Origin: Candidatus Sumerlaeota bacterium
Lineage (GTDB): Bacteria > CG03 > SLGR01
Direction: 5' to 3'
DNA length: 5,131 nucleotides
Assembly: GCA_007136585.1 (NCBI GenBank)
Contig: SLGR01000075.1
Location: 1-5,131, forward strand
Shown here: piece by piece, positions 3-5,094 of the stretch
Numbering within the stretch: position 1 is the stretch's first letter
How the letters are laid out: the number at the start of each line of letters is the position of its first letter
Translations under genes and position numbers: made by a program
Notes under the pieces: generated by a model
Databases searched by the model: none
The model's input: the letters and a program-made list of their open reading frames with translations, nothing else
What the model was told of the DNA's origin: nothing

Positions 3-164
3 GATCTCGCTGAGCGGGACAGGATAGTCAGGGATTTTTCGCGGAAACACTGCCCGGCGGCTGTTACCCTGGCGGGGGGGTACAGCTGGGACGTGGAAGA
101 TACTGTCAGTATACACGCGGAGACGGTCCGTATCATTCTTAACCTTCCAGGTGAAAACTCTTAG
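3..164 (+). CDS. Histone deacetylase / acetoin utilisation family protein, C-terminal end (partial)
   Basis: Reading from base 3 gives 53 residues and a TAG stop at 162-164; the start lies upstream of the window. Visible are a helix rich in Arg and Asp, then CPAAVTLAGGYSWDVEDT and VSIHAETVRIIL. In the arginase-fold histone deacetylase family the C-terminal GGY carries the Tyr that polarises the substrate carbonyl, and bacterial members typically continue with a D-V-E-D-T / I-H / T-V pattern as here. The family removes acetyl groups from lysines or polyamines using a catalytic metal; the metal ligands would be upstream and cannot be checked. The stop overlaps the start of the next gene by 14 bases, so it is probably cotranscribed with the Rnf-like genes, although no functional link is evident. 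I am fairly sure of the family and unsure of the substrate. Confidence 0.72.
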   Translation, partial: DLAERDRIVRDFSRKHCPAAVTLAGGYSWDVEDTVSIHAETVRIILNLPGENS

Positions 165-1122
165 AGGAGGGTTCCGTATCGCGGGAGGCGGGTCTCCTGA
201 ATATGAAGACAGGGTCCCTTCCGGAGCCGGGTCTTCAACCGTTGTGAGGGCAGAGCTCTATCCTTACAGGCGCGCCGAACTCAGGGAAATGATAATAAAC
301 TCGGGAGCCTACACCCGTATACAGTTTGATAAGCTTGAATCCGAAGGGTGCGGGATGGTTGTGGCAAATATGCTCTGCGTATCTCCCTTCTCAGGGTTCA
401 GGAGCATAATAAGCCGGCGTTTCTCGGAAGGGATAATAACGGGGCTTAAGGTACTTATGGCCGCCTTGGCCGCAGATAAGGGGGAGGCGGCGGTTCCGGC
501 CGCCTCCGCGGAAGTTCTTAGGTCCTGCCGCGAGGCGGTCTCCTCATCTCCCAACATAACGCTGCGCCCCGTACAAGACAGGTACCCCCTGGGGTTTGAC
601 CGGGTTCTGTATGAAAAAATATACGGCGGAACCCCGAGGGGGTATTACCCCGGGAAATCCGGATGCCTTGTAGCCGGAGCGGAGAAACTGCTGGATATTT
701 ACCTGGCGGCGGAGACCGGAGGAGAACCCGGTTTCCCCGTTGTGGGCGTCTGCCCCGGAAAGACCCTGCTTCTATGGTGCAGGAAAGGGAAAAGTTTAAG
801 AGAACTTTCCGGGGAGCATAAAGAGATATCCGGAAAGTTTTATGTAAGCGGGGGGCTTTTATGGGGGGGTCCCGTTTTATCTTCCGGGGACCTGAGATTT
901 GACGGTTCGGGGCTTTTTTTCTCTCTTAAAGGCGGTAAGCTGAGAAAAAATTACTGCCTGGGATGCGGGAGGTGCGCGGCGGTATGCCCGGTAAACCTGG
1001 GGGGGGTAACCAGGTCACGGCTGGAACTTGATACTGTAGTTTCCGGGAAAGATGCAAAAAATCAGGAGTGCTTAAGGTGCGGGCTCTGCGTTTATCACTG
1101 TCCGGGGTACAGCTTTAAATGA
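151..1122 (+). CDS. rnfC: RnfC-like electron transport subunit, shortened and divergent, two 4Fe-4S clusters
   Basis: Protein of 323 residues; RnfC is usually about 430 or more. RnfC is the peripheral subunit of the Rnf ferredoxin:NAD+ oxidoreductase, carrying FMN/NADH sites and two 4Fe-4S clusters. Seen here: an N-terminal LRGGF (residues 4-8) resembling the family's KGG(I/V)H start; RYPLG (144-148) like the YPQG motif; SGGLLWGGP (233-241) then GSGLFF, like the GGPMMG...TSG segment; and two ferredoxin motifs, Cys269/272/275/279-Pro and Cys307/310/313/317-Pro. The usual GVGGAGFPT motif and the following CEPYLTAD are not recognisable; the corresponding stretch near residues 50-85 reads INSGAYTRIQFDKL and LCVSPFSGF. 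The GTG start at 151 is preferred because it keeps the RGGF motif. No canonical start follows the strong AGAGGAGG at 163-170, which lies just inside the gene. The stop overlaps the rnfD-like ATG by four bases. Confidence 0.8.
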   Translation: MKTLRGGFRIAGGGSPEYEDRVPSGAGSSTVVRAELYPYRRAELREMIINSGAYTRIQFDKLESEGCGMVVANMLCVSPFSGFRSIISRRFSEGIITGLKVLMAALAADKGEAAVPAASAEVLRSCREAVSSSPNITLRPVQDRYPLGFDRVLYEKIYGGTPRGYYPGKSGCLVAGAEKLLDIYLAAETGGEPGFPVVGVCPGKTLLLWCRKGKSLRELSGEHKEISGKFYVSGGLLWGGPVLSSGDLRFDGSGLFFSLKGGKLRKNYCLGCGRCAAVCPVNLGGVTRSRLELDTVVSGKDAKNQECLRCGLCVYHCPGYSFK

Positions 1123-1826
1123 ATAACCTCACGCCGCCTTTTACTCATTCGGGGTGTTCCCCCCGGTTATTATATGCGGCGCTTGCTCTTTCCGCCCTGC
1201 CGCCTGCGGCTTACGCAGCGGGGTTTCTTTCTTACCCGGGAACTAATCTGGCGGCTCTCTTGATCTTTCCCGCGGCCGGGTTTTTTTTCGGAACCGTGAT
1301 TTCCGGGAGAGATGCGGGGGTGATGCTGACAAAATACCTTTTAAACGGGGTTCTTTTTCTTATAATAACCCCGGCAGAATCCTTCGGTATAATCAGCCTT
1401 GCGGCTATTTTGACGGTTTCTGTTGGGGTTGAGGAGTTTATCCTTCGCTCCCCGTATTCAAACCCGTTTCCTCCTTTTATTACAGCGTTTCTTTTATTCG
1501 GGGCGCCTGAGACCGCGTCCCTTCCGGCTGCGGCAGTCTGGGTCGCGCTCTCCGGAGTTATAGCGGCCTTTATCCTCCGCACCACGGGGGCGCTTACCGC
1601 GGTTTCGGCCGCGGCGGGAGCCGGTTTGTATATGTTCTTCTCCGGGGCGGGGTTCCCGGAAGCAGCCGCGGTTTCGGTGATAGCGGCGGGTTACCCGGGA
1701 CTCCTTCCTGCAGAGAGGTTAAAGAGGGTTCTTGCGGCGGCTGCGCTGGGGGCGGCGGCCGCAGGAATAGGGTACCGGGGGATGGCGCTGGCCTTTATAG
1801 CCGCGGGGGTTATGGAATGGTTCTGA
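1119..1826 (+). CDS. rnfD: RnfD-like integral membrane subunit lacking the FMN-bearing loop
   Basis: Very hydrophobic protein of 235 residues; RnfD is normally around 320-350. The start PFTHSGCSPRLLYA (7-20) matches the family's SPH-x-H-S-G...R opening, SPYSNPFPPF (111-120) matches the GGLGxNPFNPA region, and the final third (ERLKRVLAAAALG, then GYRGMALAFIAAGV) matches the conserved RGRLIFGAGIG...GYPEGVAFA end. Several membrane helices can be read, roughly residues 17-35, 43-61, 70-84, 88-105, 117-128, 136-153, 158-175 and 203-232. In RnfD/NqrB an extracytoplasmic segment after NPFNPA carries the SGAT motif whose Thr binds FMN covalently. Here the chain runs almost directly from NPF to GAPETASLPAAA, which resembles the later GSLGETSALA motif, so that loop appears deleted. 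Start ATG overlaps the rnfC-like stop (ATGA), and there is no clear Shine-Dalgarno, so reinitiation is likely. Confidence 0.75.
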   Translation: MNNLTPPFTHSGCSPRLLYAALALSALPPAAYAAGFLSYPGTNLAALLIFPAAGFFFGTVISGRDAGVMLTKYLLNGVLFLIITPAESFGIISLAAILTVSVGVEEFILRSPYSNPFPPFITAFLLFGAPETASLPAAAVWVALSGVIAAFILRTTGALTAVSAAAGAGLYMFFSGAGFPEAAAVSVIAAGYPGLLPAERLKRVLAAAALGAAAAGIGYRGMALAFIAAGVMEWF

Positions 1827-2224
1827 GAAAAGTTTTCCTGGGTTTAATAACCGCTCTGTTTTTCGGGGTCCTTATTAAGGTTTACGACCATACCGGGTTG
1901 GATACCACCGAACCCTGCGAATCTCTCCCGGAGGCAAAGGAGGGGGTCTACAGGGGAACGGCAAGGGGGTTTGTTTCCGATATAGAGGTTGAGGTAAAGT
2001 TTGAAAGAAGTAAGCCGGGGGAAGAGGTAAGGATGACCCGTATAAGCGTGGTCTCCTCCCGGGAGGTGAAACGGTACTGGGATAAGGTGCTGGAAGAGCT
2101 GAAACCCCTGGTTCTTGAGACCCAGAGCACCTCAGTGGACGCTGTTACGGGTGCAACGGGTTCAAGCAGGGGTTTTCTGGAAGCGGTAGAGGATGCAAAG
2201 AGAAGAGCTTATAAGAGCGATTAG
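1817..2224 (+). CDS. rnfG: RnfG-like FMN-binding domain protein with covalent-FMN motif
   Basis: Protein of 135 residues, against about 180-210 for usual RnfG. It has one N-terminal membrane helix (about 6-22) followed by a single FMN_bind domain (about 43-130). The domain shows EGVYRGTARGF, the pattern TRISVVSSREVKRYW, and VDAVTGATGSSRGFLEAV. The segment Asp108-Ala-Val-Thr111-Gly-Ala-Thr114 fits the Dxx(S/T)GAT target motif of the flavin transferase ApbE, so Thr114 is the predicted phosphoester-linked FMN attachment residue. In Rnf and Nqr complexes this subunit relays electrons on the extracytoplasmic side, which the N-terminal anchor supports. No apbE gene lies in the window. The ATG overlaps the end of the rnfD-like gene by 10 bases. 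This is the best preserved subunit of the cluster; the function of the whole remains inference. Confidence 0.85.
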   Translation: MVLRKVFLGLITALFFGVLIKVYDHTGLDTTEPCESLPEAKEGVYRGTARGFVSDIEVEVKFERSKPGEEVRMTRISVVSSREVKRYWDKVLEELKPLVLETQSTSVDAVTGATGSSRGFLEAVEDAKRRAYKSD

Positions 2225-2690
2225 AACCGCCCCGCCTGCCGCCCTGGTCCCGGCCCTGGTCTTTTCGCGCAGCATACCCGCATCCCTGTTCGCCGCAGGT
2301 TATTTTGCGGTTATAATATTTTTTCTGTACCTGGCGCTTCTTTTTTCCGGGAAACGGCTAAGCCGCGGAGAAACCATATTTCTCTGCGCCTCGGTTTCGG
2401 GTTTTATCTCAACCCTGTGTTTTATTCTTTCAGCAGGGGGCATCACTGAGACCGAGTCGGCTGTTTTAGGTGTCTCTGCCTTATATTTCGCCTCCGTTAT
2501 GACGGCTGGATTCAGGGTAACAGGTCCTGCGGAGAAGTTTTTTTCAGGAACCGCCGCGGTCTCCCTTATAATAATGGCGGTCTCTCTTCCTGTCACTGTA
2601 ATTCCGTATCCCTCCGCGGCATCCTCCTTTTTTTCCGCCGCCCTTATTTTTGCCGCGGTATCAGCTTTATCGGGTAAGGGAGGGTCTTAG
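2193..2690 (+). CDS. rnfE: RnfE-like integral membrane subunit without the cluster cysteines
   Basis: Protein of 165 residues with about five to six membrane helices (roughly 17-35, 36-52, 60-80, 86-105, 118-135 and 143-159). Assignment rests on position (fourth in a C-D-G-E-A series) and weak similarity in layout. EELIRAIRTAPPAALVPALVF parallels the NPxLVxxLGLCP opening of RnfE, and the basic SGKRLSRGET loop is followed by CASVSGFISTLCFIL, parallel to the IASxVxxVxxLL helix. In RnfE one Cys in LGLCP and one in the later TNC motif help hold a 2Fe-2S cluster between RnfA and RnfE. Here the first aligns with the VFSRS stretch and the second with FASVM, so both appear missing. The only cysteines, Cys65 and Cys76, lie elsewhere. 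It overlaps the rnfG-like gene by 32 bases, the longest overlap in the operon. It could also be an unrelated membrane protein that took the RnfE position. Confidence 0.52.
   Translation: MQREELIRAIRTAPPAALVPALVFSRSIPASLFAAGYFAVIIFFLYLALLFSGKRLSRGETIFLCASVSGFISTLCFILSAGGITETESAVLGVSALYFASVMTAGFRVTGPAEKFFSGTAAVSLIIMAVSLPVTVIPYPSAASSFFSAALIFAAVSALSGKGGS
2676..2684 (+). promoter_or_regulatory. Strong Shine-Dalgarno of the rnfA-like gene
   Basis: AAGGGAGGG lies within the last codons of the rnfE-like gene, seven bases before the ATG at 2692. It is the clearest ribosome binding site inside the operon and decides the start of the rnfA-like gene in favour of ATG 2692 over TTG 2650. Confidence 0.75.
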
Positions 2691-2691
2691 A

Positions 2692-3180
2692 ATGAGTTCT
2701 CCGGCCGCCGCGCTATATTATTTTCTTGGTCTCCGGATCCTGTGGAATATAGCGGAGAATACTCCGGGGAGGTTCCGCCGTCTAAGTTCCGTCTTCTGCG
2801 TTTCCGGGGCGGCGTTTATGACCGGGGTATCTCATATCTTATTAACCGGTCTCTACGGACCGGCTCTTAATATTATTTCGGTTATTCTTCTGGGGGTTTT
2901 CTGGGGCCGGGTGTTCTCCGTCTTTGCCGGAGGGGATTTTTTCCCGGAGTTCAGCACCCTCGGAGCCGGAGGGGCGCTGCTTGCCTCTGAGTACGGGGTG
3001 ACTCCGGGAGCTTCCTTTCTTTTTTTCGGGTATCTCTCGGGAGGGTACTTTGTTGCTGCCGCGCTCTTTCTCCCGGTATACGCCTCCCTGAACAGGAAAG
3101 CGCACCCGTATTTTAGGGGTATACCGGTTATGCTTATAATACTGGGTCTTCTTACCCTGCTTCTAAAGGGATGGGTCTGA
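2692..3180 (+). CDS. rnfA: RnfA-like integral membrane subunit without the cluster cysteines
   Basis: Protein of 162 residues with about five to six membrane helices; RnfA is about 190. The N-terminal YFLGLRILWNIAE (10-22) aligns with the family's KFLGLCPFMGVSKK, with Arg15 in place of the Cys. The C-terminal FRGIPVMLIILGLLTLLLKGW (141-161) closely follows the RnfA ending FRGxxIALITAGLMxLAFMGF. The second family cysteine, in TNCAVLG, has no counterpart, and the only Cys is Cys36. In Rnf/Nqr the RnfA-RnfE pair forms a pseudo-symmetric channel around a 2Fe-2S cluster, so this protein is not expected to bind that cluster. Start: the ATG at 2692 has AAGGGAGGG (2676-2684) seven bases upstream and lies one base after the preceding stop. 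An in-frame TTG at 2650 would add 14 poorly conserved residues inside the rnfE-like gene and is not favoured. Confidence 0.68.
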   Translation: MSSPAAALYYFLGLRILWNIAENTPGRFRRLSSVFCVSGAAFMTGVSHILLTGLYGPALNIISVILLGVFWGRVFSVFAGGDFFPEFSTLGAGGALLASEYGVTPGASFLFFGYLSGGYFVAAALFLPVYASLNRKAHPYFRGIPVMLIILGLLTLLLKGWV

Positions 3181-4268
3181 GTTTATCTGCCGGGAAAAAT
3201 CCCCTGGAGGAGAAAAACCTTATACCTGCTTTGGCAATTCTTACAGTCGCCGCAGCGGCGGTTCAGGCAGCGGAGGGGGCTGCGCCTCTTCCGGATATAT
3301 GGGGGGAGCCGGGGCTTGTAAACCTTGTAACGCTTATCTCTCTTATACTTTTTGGTTCCGGGAGCGCCCTTGGAGTAACTCTGGGAAGGGTTCTTCTCGT
3401 ATCATTTTTTGAGGGGACGTTTCTTTCCCCGGTCTTTTATACTCTCCTAGTCTCCGGGGTTGCTTCGGCCGCGGTTATGATTCTTCTTTACAGGCCCCTT
3501 GGGGTTCTTAGCCCGGTCTGGGTAGGCGTCGCCGGAGGCTTTTCTTATAATCTAACCCGTCTCTTATCGGTCTATCTCCAGACGGCAGTTCCCCCCAGTA
3601 TTCTAAAGCAGTTTCTCCTTCTGGCAGCTGCCGGCGCGGCGGTAGGCGCCGTAAACGGGTATCTGTCCGCCCGGGGTGCTATTGTTCTTACCCGCTTTTC
3701 TCCCAGAAGAATCTACCTGGGGTCCTCTTCTCCCAGGCGTATTGAGATTATGAGAAAACGGGGGGTTCCCGTCATAGTTATCTCACCCGGGATAAATGAA
3801 GGTCCGCCCCTTAAAGGCGAAAACCCCGCTGATTACGCTTCCAGGCAGGCAGAGGAGAAGCTTCGCGCGATTGCCGGGTATCTCAGGCCTCCCGGAATAT
3901 TGATAACAGCTGATACCGTAGTGGAATGCGGCGGCAGGATACTCGGAAAACCTTCCGGGGAAGACGAAGCGGCCAGGATGCTCAGGTATCTTTCGGGGAA
4001 AACTCAGCGTGTTTTTACGGCGGTGGAAGCGCTGAATCTCAGAACAGGAGAAAAATCGGGAAGGGTTGAGGTCTCGGAACTGAAAATGAAAGATATGACC
4101 CCTGAAGAAGTGAGTAACCTTAAAGGGCGCAACCTGGACAAGGCCGGCGCCTACGGGATACAGAGCATGCGTGACCGCTACGTTGAATGGGTTAAGGGGA
4201 GTTACCTTAATATAGTGGGGTTTCCCGTTGCGGCTGTCCGTGACCTGATAAGGGAAGTGGGCGGGTAG
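3171..4268 (+). CDS. Fusion of Gx-transporter/HepI-like membrane domain with Maf nucleotide pyrophosphatase
   Basis: Protein of 365 residues with two domains in one unbroken frame. Residues about 17-168 are hydrophobic and resemble the Gx transporter / heptaprenyl diphosphate synthase component I family: GEPGLVNLVTLISLILFG, RVLLVSFFEGTFLSPVF and VGVAGGFSYNL are typical; about five helices; substrate unknown. Residues about 180-365 form a full-length Maf domain: LGSSSPRR (183-190), INEG (208-211), ADTVV (247-251), GKP (259-261), LSGKTQRVFTAV, DKAGAYGIQ (323-331) and GSYLNIVGFP (343-352). Maf proteins are house-cleaning NTP pyrophosphatases; the DKAGAYGIQ form is that of the YhdE-type dTTP/UTP enzymes, so activity is likely retained. 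The Maf part should face the cytosol. The ATG overlaps the rnfA-like gene by 10 bases; AAAGGG lies immediately before it, with an in-frame CTG at 3177 as an alternative start. It sits where rnfB would be expected. Confidence 0.85.
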   Translation: MGLSLSAGKNPLEEKNLIPALAILTVAAAAVQAAEGAAPLPDIWGEPGLVNLVTLISLILFGSGSALGVTLGRVLLVSFFEGTFLSPVFYTLLVSGVASAAVMILLYRPLGVLSPVWVGVAGGFSYNLTRLLSVYLQTAVPPSILKQFLLLAAAGAAVGAVNGYLSARGAIVLTRFSPRRIYLGSSSPRRIEIMRKRGVPVIVISPGINEGPPLKGENPADYASRQAEEKLRAIAGYLRPPGILITADTVVECGGRILGKPSGEDEAARMLRYLSGKTQRVFTAVEALNLRTGEKSGRVEVSELKMKDMTPEEVSNLKGRNLDKAGAYGIQSMRDRYVEWVKGSYLNIVGFPVAAVRDLIREVGG

Positions 4269-5020: not shown

Positions 5021-5082
5021 TTGCCTCACAAGAAAATCTAAACGAAACATAATCGTTGCCTCATCAGAAAATCTAAACGAAA
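5021..5082 (+). repeat. Two 27-base direct repeats, 35-base period
   Basis: Copy one is 5021-5047 and copy two is 5056-5082. Both open with TTGCCTCA and close with AGAAAATCTAAACGAAA; they differ only at positions 9 and 10 (CA versus TC), giving 25 of 27 identical. The intervening eight bases are CATAATCG. Base composition is visibly more AT-rich than the flanking genes. Tandem repeated end sequences containing a GAAAA-x-x-x-x-AAC core just before a transposase gene recall the multiple transposase-binding repeats of IS21-family ends. Part of a regulatory operator is the alternative. Confidence 0.85.
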
Positions 5083-5094
5083 TGATTTAGAATA

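Follow-up and report, generated by a model that had tools for sequence, protein, structure and literature searches.

The window, by which we mean the whole stretch of 5,131 nucleotides analysed here (source: contig C228 of genome G000; 1.88 Mb, 88% complete, fragmented assembly), carries an operon for a separate derived complex and not for a flavin-poor Rnf. We hold with moderate confidence that its C-, D-, G-, E- and A-like proteins, together with an EetB-Maf fusion, make up an Rnf-derived paralogous complex whose known electron-carrier sites were lost in concert, most likely leaving a redox-silent platform. We set the complex apart from an Rnf that is merely one flavin short because the site losses are concerted and because canonical Rnf is encoded elsewhere. 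The sequences lack all of the transmembrane electron-carrier sites known from Rnf; the outer FMN site and the inner [4Fe-4S] motifs remain. With its membrane cofactor sites lost, the complex therefore cannot work as the known Rnf pump. Ferredoxin:NAD+ oxidoreduction by the known route and ion pumping are both predicted to be absent. The features of the window are as follows.

3..164, + strand: histone-deacetylase/AcuC-like gene, C-terminal end (frame-3 translation)
151..1122, + strand: RnfC-like, 323 aa, without N-terminal barrel (TIGR01945, Complex1_51K, alignment with canonical RnfC)
313..318, + strand: RnfC-like, site of the missing GxGGAGFP flavin/NAD loop, T55/R56 (8 RnfC-like and 6 canonical RnfC aligned)
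955..1101, + strand: RnfC-like, two CxxCxxCxxxC [4Fe-4S] motifs (invariant columns)
1119..1826, + strand: RnfD-like, 235 aa, 10 helices, without flavin sites (AF2, Foldseek, VIA, hhalign)
1461..1535, + strand: RnfD-like, deletion point, from NPFPPF (the FNPA equivalent) to GAPETASLPAAA (alignments)
1692..1700, + strand: RnfD-like, YPG, residues 192-194 (family-invariant; replaces TDP(V))
1817..2224, + strand: RnfG-like, 135 aa, single N-terminal hydrophobic helix and FMN-binding domain (PF04205 5.8e-9)
2138..2158, + strand: RnfG-like, DAVTGAT flavinylation motif, T114 (sequence)
2193..2690, + strand: RnfE-like, 165 aa, without [2Fe-2S] cysteines (position, length, hhalign, cysteine table)
2692..3180, + strand: RnfA-like, 162 aa, without [2Fe-2S] cysteines (hhalign, model, cysteine table)
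3171..4268, + strand: EetB (PF07456) fused to a Maf pyrophosphatase domain (Pfam matches)
within the window, - strand: SurA_N protein

Most start and stop codons in the window overlap or nearly abut in an operon-like manner, and the overlaps are intact. The family comprises the window's genome and its relatives G001-G007, eight genomes of one order of uncultured bacteria. Among these, the C-D-G-E-A order is kept in the window and in G003-G007, wherever the contig permits; the shorter contigs show C-D-G plus part of what follows (G002) or C-D-G (G001). The upstream neighbour is likewise conserved: by inspection, the window's gene end matches the full histone-deacetylase/AcuC-like genes that adjoin the operon in L006, L007 and L044-L048.

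Direct family searches gave nothing for the RnfD-like protein, with no match in Pfam, including PF03116 (RnfD/NqrB), NCBIfam, PHROGs or PDB (phmmer); its identity comes from profiles of its homologues and from structure. The homologue in G003 reaches 21.9 bits against PF03116 (E 7.8e-5; cut-off 27.7). A profile of eight homologues (A1) aligns with the canonical RnfD profile (A2) over 224 columns (hhalign, P 92, E 6.6e-7), and none of the controls, 60 column shuffles and one reversed, falls under E 0.04. Built without canonical sequences, the A1 profile retrieves canonical RnfD in G001, G130 and G323 (E 3e-4 to 3e-7), with two more matches in G162 and G208. Weak single-protein matches in G017 and G073 (E 0.004-0.009) did not reappear when the profile was used. 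The predicted structure (AF2, pLDDT 74.6) contains ten helices and superposes on Azotobacter RnfD with Z 16.9 and an rmsd of 3.0 over 215 of 235 residues, indicating that the RnfD fold is present; the next structural matches are NqrB (Z 13.5-15) and then ammonium/urea (Amt) channels (~7-11; Foldseek, VIA). The RnfD fold is that of the ammonium/urea channels (PMC12174285). The structure models were built from alignments of 7-8 sequences (pLDDT ~75), and on that footing the modelled proteins may still hold a cofactor site of another kind. The profile match and the structure together identify the protein as a genuine, highly diverged RnfD. It retains 12 of the 60 columns that are invariant in canonical RnfD (at least 11 sequences), and the homologues' RnfD-like proteins share 18-32% identity with it.

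The flavin sites of this RnfD are gone. The earlier note had placed NPF at residues 115-117 and a GETS-like string some 12 residues further on, and both stand there: NPF at 1461-1469 of the window and GAPETASLPAAA at 1500-1535 (residues 128-139). It had also claimed that the segment carrying the covalent FMN is deleted and that no Dxx(S/T)GAT motif is left, which is borne out by the NPF-to-GETS interval, ~15 residues in the window protein as opposed to 59-82 in 12 canonical RnfD from within the phylum. In those 12 proteins, the threonine of [ST]xATP sits between FNPA and GETS; the motifs [ST]xAT and Dxx[ST]xA[ST] are absent from the window protein and its seven same-order homologues (0/8), and a search for an SGAT-type ApbE motif elsewhere in the RnfD-like protein yielded no replacement. 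The phylum's canonical threonine aligns with TTATP of Clostridium tetanomorphum and Acetobacterium woodii RnfD, and T156 is the FMN carrier of A. woodii RnfD (PMC11889175).

Alignment locates the deletion over the FMN threonine, in a protein with the RnfD fold. In the HMMER alignment, FPPF of the family lies on FNPA and a gap extends over the canonical ..SPLDALTTATPLGAWKF..; the hhalign gap likewise covers the threonine. The HMMER, hhalign and MAFFT alignments vary in detail, and none of them has a threonine at the FMN site. Another register from hhalign, FPPFI on FPvlIT, was rejected in favour of FPPF on FNPA, the placement preferred by HMMER and MAFFT, and the threonine is absent either way. 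The note's further claim that the downstream string matches GSLGETS holds for position, which is correct to within ~10 residues, but neither NPF nor PETAS is a conserved string among the seven homologues, and the match of PETAS to GETS may be coincidental.

The riboflavin site is altered as well. Riboflavin in A. woodii RnfD is bound by N123 and D249 (PMC11889175), which correspond to canonical N137 (N of FNPA) and D282 (D of TDPVT) when numbered by hand on the alignment. These positions are changed in all eight proteins, the Asn to Pro or Thr and the Asp to Tyr. The family's invariant YPG stands in place of canonical TDP(V), the motif that supplies the riboflavin-contacting Asp in A. woodii RnfD. 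On the tests for RNF membership, the RnfD-like protein thus displays the fold and is devoid of both the covalent FMN threonine and the riboflavin ligands.

RnfA and RnfE supply two cysteines each to the intramembrane [2Fe-2S] cluster (PMC12174285), and the canonical RnfA and RnfE of these genomes carry LGxCP and NC motifs. None of the LGxCP or NC cysteines occurs in the seven E-like or six A-like sequences, which contain zero conserved cysteine, and a further partial E-like and A-like sequence of G001 agrees with this loss. RnfE-like reads ALVPAL where the canonical protein has LGMCP, and RnfA-like reads LGLRIL where the canonical protein has LGICPF. RnfA-like aligns with canonical RnfA in hhalign (P 79.5, E 1.5e-5), and its model matches A. 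woodii RnfA (9eri_A) at Z 13.0, with RnfA/NqrE chains ranking above most NqrD/RnfE chains. The RnfE-like assignment is weaker than the RnfA-like one, coming mostly from position and length together with a weak, end-to-end hhalign score of 20.0 against canonical RnfE (shuffle maximum 17.7).

On the inner side, the RnfC-like protein matches TIGR01945 under the curated cut-off (6.8e-16, profile 157-416) and Complex1_51K (2.4e-10). Comparison of the eight RnfC-like proteins with six canonical RnfC, G000's own included, displays a six-residue deletion exactly over GGAGFP in 8/8, and the N-terminal barrel is gone too. Both [4Fe-4S] motifs are kept, C269/272/275/279 and C307/310/313/317 being invariant in all eight. 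On the outer side, the DAVTGAT motif and the PF04205 match indicate that RnfG-like retains its covalent FMN attachment site, as the earlier note had said of it, and the threonine is conserved in 8/8. In G004 and G006 the motif takes the form TEAT/TAAT; motif loss in these two was considered and rejected, since the threonine also persists in the SEAT, TAAT, TSAT and TTAT forms that canonical RnfD of the phylum uses. RnfB-like proteins with Fe-S motifs occur in G001, G003, G005 and G007, and shorter ones in G002 (121 aa) and in G004 and G006 (93-95 aa). The CGACG..C ferredoxin domain, which feeds RnfA/E, is missing from the aligned full-length RnfB-like proteins of G003, G005 and G007. In the window, RnfA-like is followed by EetB-Maf with neither an RnfB-like nor an EetA gene in between, and a search of the G000 genome found canonical RnfB only, with no RnfB-like protein and no NusG-II (EetA) match.

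The last gene of the operon joins EetB (PF07456, 1.6e-15, 57.8 bits, cut-off 30, residues 24-166) to the nucleotide pyrophosphatase domain Maf (PF02545, 2.6e-43, residues 180-362). The fusion is found in the window, G001, G002, G003, G005, G006 and G007; in G004 the contig is cut. Listeria EetB is a FAD-binding, ECF-type substrate subunit required for FAD export ahead of flavinylation by ApbE, and eetB is frequently placed with rnf genes (PMC9973259). PF07456 accompanies the degenerate operon in 8/8 genomes, against 0/8 for the phylum's other genomes, a co-occurrence that could be explained by shared descent alone, all eight genomes being of one order. EetA (NusG-II) is present in 6/8 genomes. 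ApbE occurs in G000 and most relatives. Neither G005 (94% complete) nor G007, whose RnfG-like proteins have TGAT motifs all the same, yielded an ApbE gene, possibly owing to an assembly gap. The idea that the Rnf-like core might drive EetB for want of an ECF partner is not supported, as CbiQ/EcfT-family genes are found in all eight operon genomes.

We infer that the membrane core would act as a redox-silent platform rather than a ferredoxin:NAD+ pump, holding a flavinylated RnfG-like protein outside and an Fe-S RnfC-like protein inside. EetB might partner this platform by supplying FAD for flavinylation, and the assembly could take part in flavin-based extracytosolic redox chemistry as an accessory module, a sensor or a channel. 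A transport role is conceivable because RnfD has the ammonium/urea-channel fold. That a whole Rnf-type complex was repurposed in one order as a membrane machine without transmembrane redox cofactors, its RnfD/RnfA-E core forming, for example, a flavin/solute transporter, a channel or a transmembrane redox sensor, is a real possibility, though a somewhat more tentative one.

The main rival explanation is that electrons still cross the membrane by replacement carriers (quinone, haem or a moved flavin) on the D-, E- and A-like proteins, making the complex a rewired extracytosolic reductase that feeds the RnfG FMN. Fe-S clusters inside and FMN outside are both retained, as an inward-to-outward electron line requires, and the EetB (and EetA) partners are those of the Listeria electron-export system (PMC9973259). 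However, few residues are invariant in the families that would have to carry such a cofactor (seven in D, one in E, three in A), there is no Cys or His among them, and RnfB-like is shortened or non-adjacent. We consider this explanation unlikely, although it deserves to be taken seriously.

Less probable still is the loss of the covalent FMN only, with the RnfG FMN sampling a non-covalent RnfD flavin site, as in the two-gene Nqr/Rnf-like complexes (Meheust 2021, PMC8238504; Huang 2024, PMC10979944). Such a site has been published for NqrB/RnfD-like proteins without the conserved flavinylation threonine (PMC10979944), and the two-gene complexes resemble the window complex in pairing a threonine-less NqrB/RnfD-like protein with a threonine-bearing RnfG-like one. 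They have two subunits, however; their RnfD bears a fused PF00175 NAD domain and has kept the non-covalent flavin site. The window complex has five Rnf-like subunits, its 235-aa RnfD-like protein has no PF00175 and hence no NAD-binding C-terminal domain, and the FNPA Asn and TDP Asp are changed in 8/8 proteins. Since RnfD-like proteins without the flavinylation threonine had already been published for the two-gene type (PMC10979944), the point first raised about the window's RnfD is a known type of change.

The earlier note had concluded that the complex would have one covalent FMN rather than two. Its premises stand, the RnfD threonine being lost and the RnfG threonine kept, but the picture of an otherwise normal Rnf fails. 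The loss is wider than the RnfD loop and extends to the riboflavin ligands, the [2Fe-2S] cysteines of RnfA/E and the flavin/NAD loop of RnfC, and a working Rnf with a single covalent FMN is accordingly very improbable. With the RNF complex (RnfABCDGE; A. woodii, C. tetanomorphum, Azotobacter vinelandii) the operons of the window and its relatives share the C-D-G-E-A(-B) order, the RnfD and RnfA folds, the RnfG FMN threonine and the two [4Fe-4S] motifs of RnfC. They differ from it in the absent RnfD FMN/riboflavin sites, A/E cysteines, RnfC flavin/NAD loop and barrel; moreover, RnfB is non-adjacent in the window, and all window subunits are shorter.

Canonical Rnf coexists with the derived operon. 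The RnfC-like gene is present in 8/8 genomes of the order and a separate canonical PF03116 RnfD in 6/8. The canonical genes of G000 comprise RnfC and the start of RnfG on C39, and RnfG-E-A-B with all cysteines on C182; no canonical RnfD (PF03116) was found in its 88% complete assembly, nor does a canonical rnfD stand at its proS and cysteine desulfurase flanks (C45:1-245, C144:4416-4873), which hold a ComM-like and an Rrf2-like gene in its place. This absence would fit a substitution of the D-like protein for canonical RnfD in the window's genome, which is nonetheless hard to credit: six relatives have both proteins, the G000 assembly is incomplete and fragmented, and the D-like protein has no flavin sites.

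The operon genes are intact and, as their substitution rates indicate, under purifying selection. Within two genera, RnfD-like displays dN of 0.28-0.37 and dS of 1.15-1.7, giving a rough dN/dS of ~0.22-0.25 with dS near saturation; the other operon genes are similar (~0.2) and RnfG-like is higher (~0.4). A decaying pseudo-operon, which the many missing conserved residues and the short or (in the window) non-adjacent RnfB-like proteins might suggest, is the least credible explanation, as it is contradicted by dN/dS ~0.2 within two genera, by open frames in eight genomes despite the low identity of their RnfD-like proteins, and by the intact start/stop overlaps.

An Rnf-derived platform complex bears on several matters. 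Coupling of electron flow to ion movement in Rnf/Nqr is still debated, and an architecture kept with its carriers dropped would separate the role of the membrane fold itself from that of the cofactors. Annotation of rnf by synteny or by RnfC/RnfG matches may falsely predict an energy-conserving pump. Through the operon, what is left of an Rnf is also linked with flavin export by EetB, a route recognised recently. In searches of one open-access library we found no Rnf-type operon with joint loss of all transmembrane cofactor sites, which is not proof of absence. The Listeria flavin-based EET locus (EetA/EetB; PMC9973259) shares the EetB family, EetA (in 6/8 genomes) and an ApbE-type substrate; in contrast, the window operon has no Ndh2, DmkA or PplA, has Rnf-like subunits and an EetB-Maf fusion, and EetA is unmatched in G000.

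Another comparison is offered by Bacilli/Izimaplasma MAGs, in which isolated RnfC-RnfD pairs occur (L099, L106, L107, L112, L116, L121). Their RnfC has two [4Fe-4S] motifs without GGAGFP, and their RnfD, in which no flavin threonine motif can be recognised, aligns with canonical RnfD at hhalign P 94.8. Unlike the window operon, they have no adjacent G, E or A, and their sequences are distant (hhalign to A1, P 1.8). The pairs look like a separate degenerate Rnf, parallel and more reduced. Pair coordinates are 701-2669 in L099, 6506-8477 in L106 and 1003-3085 in L121; the L121 pair is preceded by an ApbE-like gene and followed by a NusG-II-like (EetA) gene.

Several minor observations concern other loci. 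In L100, L101 and L103 (Aminicenantes, Neomarinimicrobiota), a CxxCH-rich, probably multihaem gene precedes the Rnf operon, and RnfC is without GGAGFP. RnfD of L103 keeps the loop with FDFRYPL at the threonine motif, so that the covalent FMN may be absent; the RnfA/E cysteines are kept in L100 and L103. A stand-alone RnfD-like protein of 253 aa in L049 (6627-7388; G012:C107) has a PF03116 match that leaves out the flavin segment (profile positions 137-172), and the protein's gene adjoins cupredoxin-like and CusA-like efflux genes. In this order, canonical rnfD is separated from the remaining rnf genes in L051, L052 and L055, adjoining a cysteine desulfurase gene; proS is also beside it in L052 and near it in L055, and the canonical rnfC-G-E-A-B genes are located elsewhere. 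Finally, a direct repeat, TTGCCTCAnnAGAAAATCTAAACGAAA, occurs at 5021-5048 and 5056-5083 of the window, near the contig end, and is possibly part of a mobile element.
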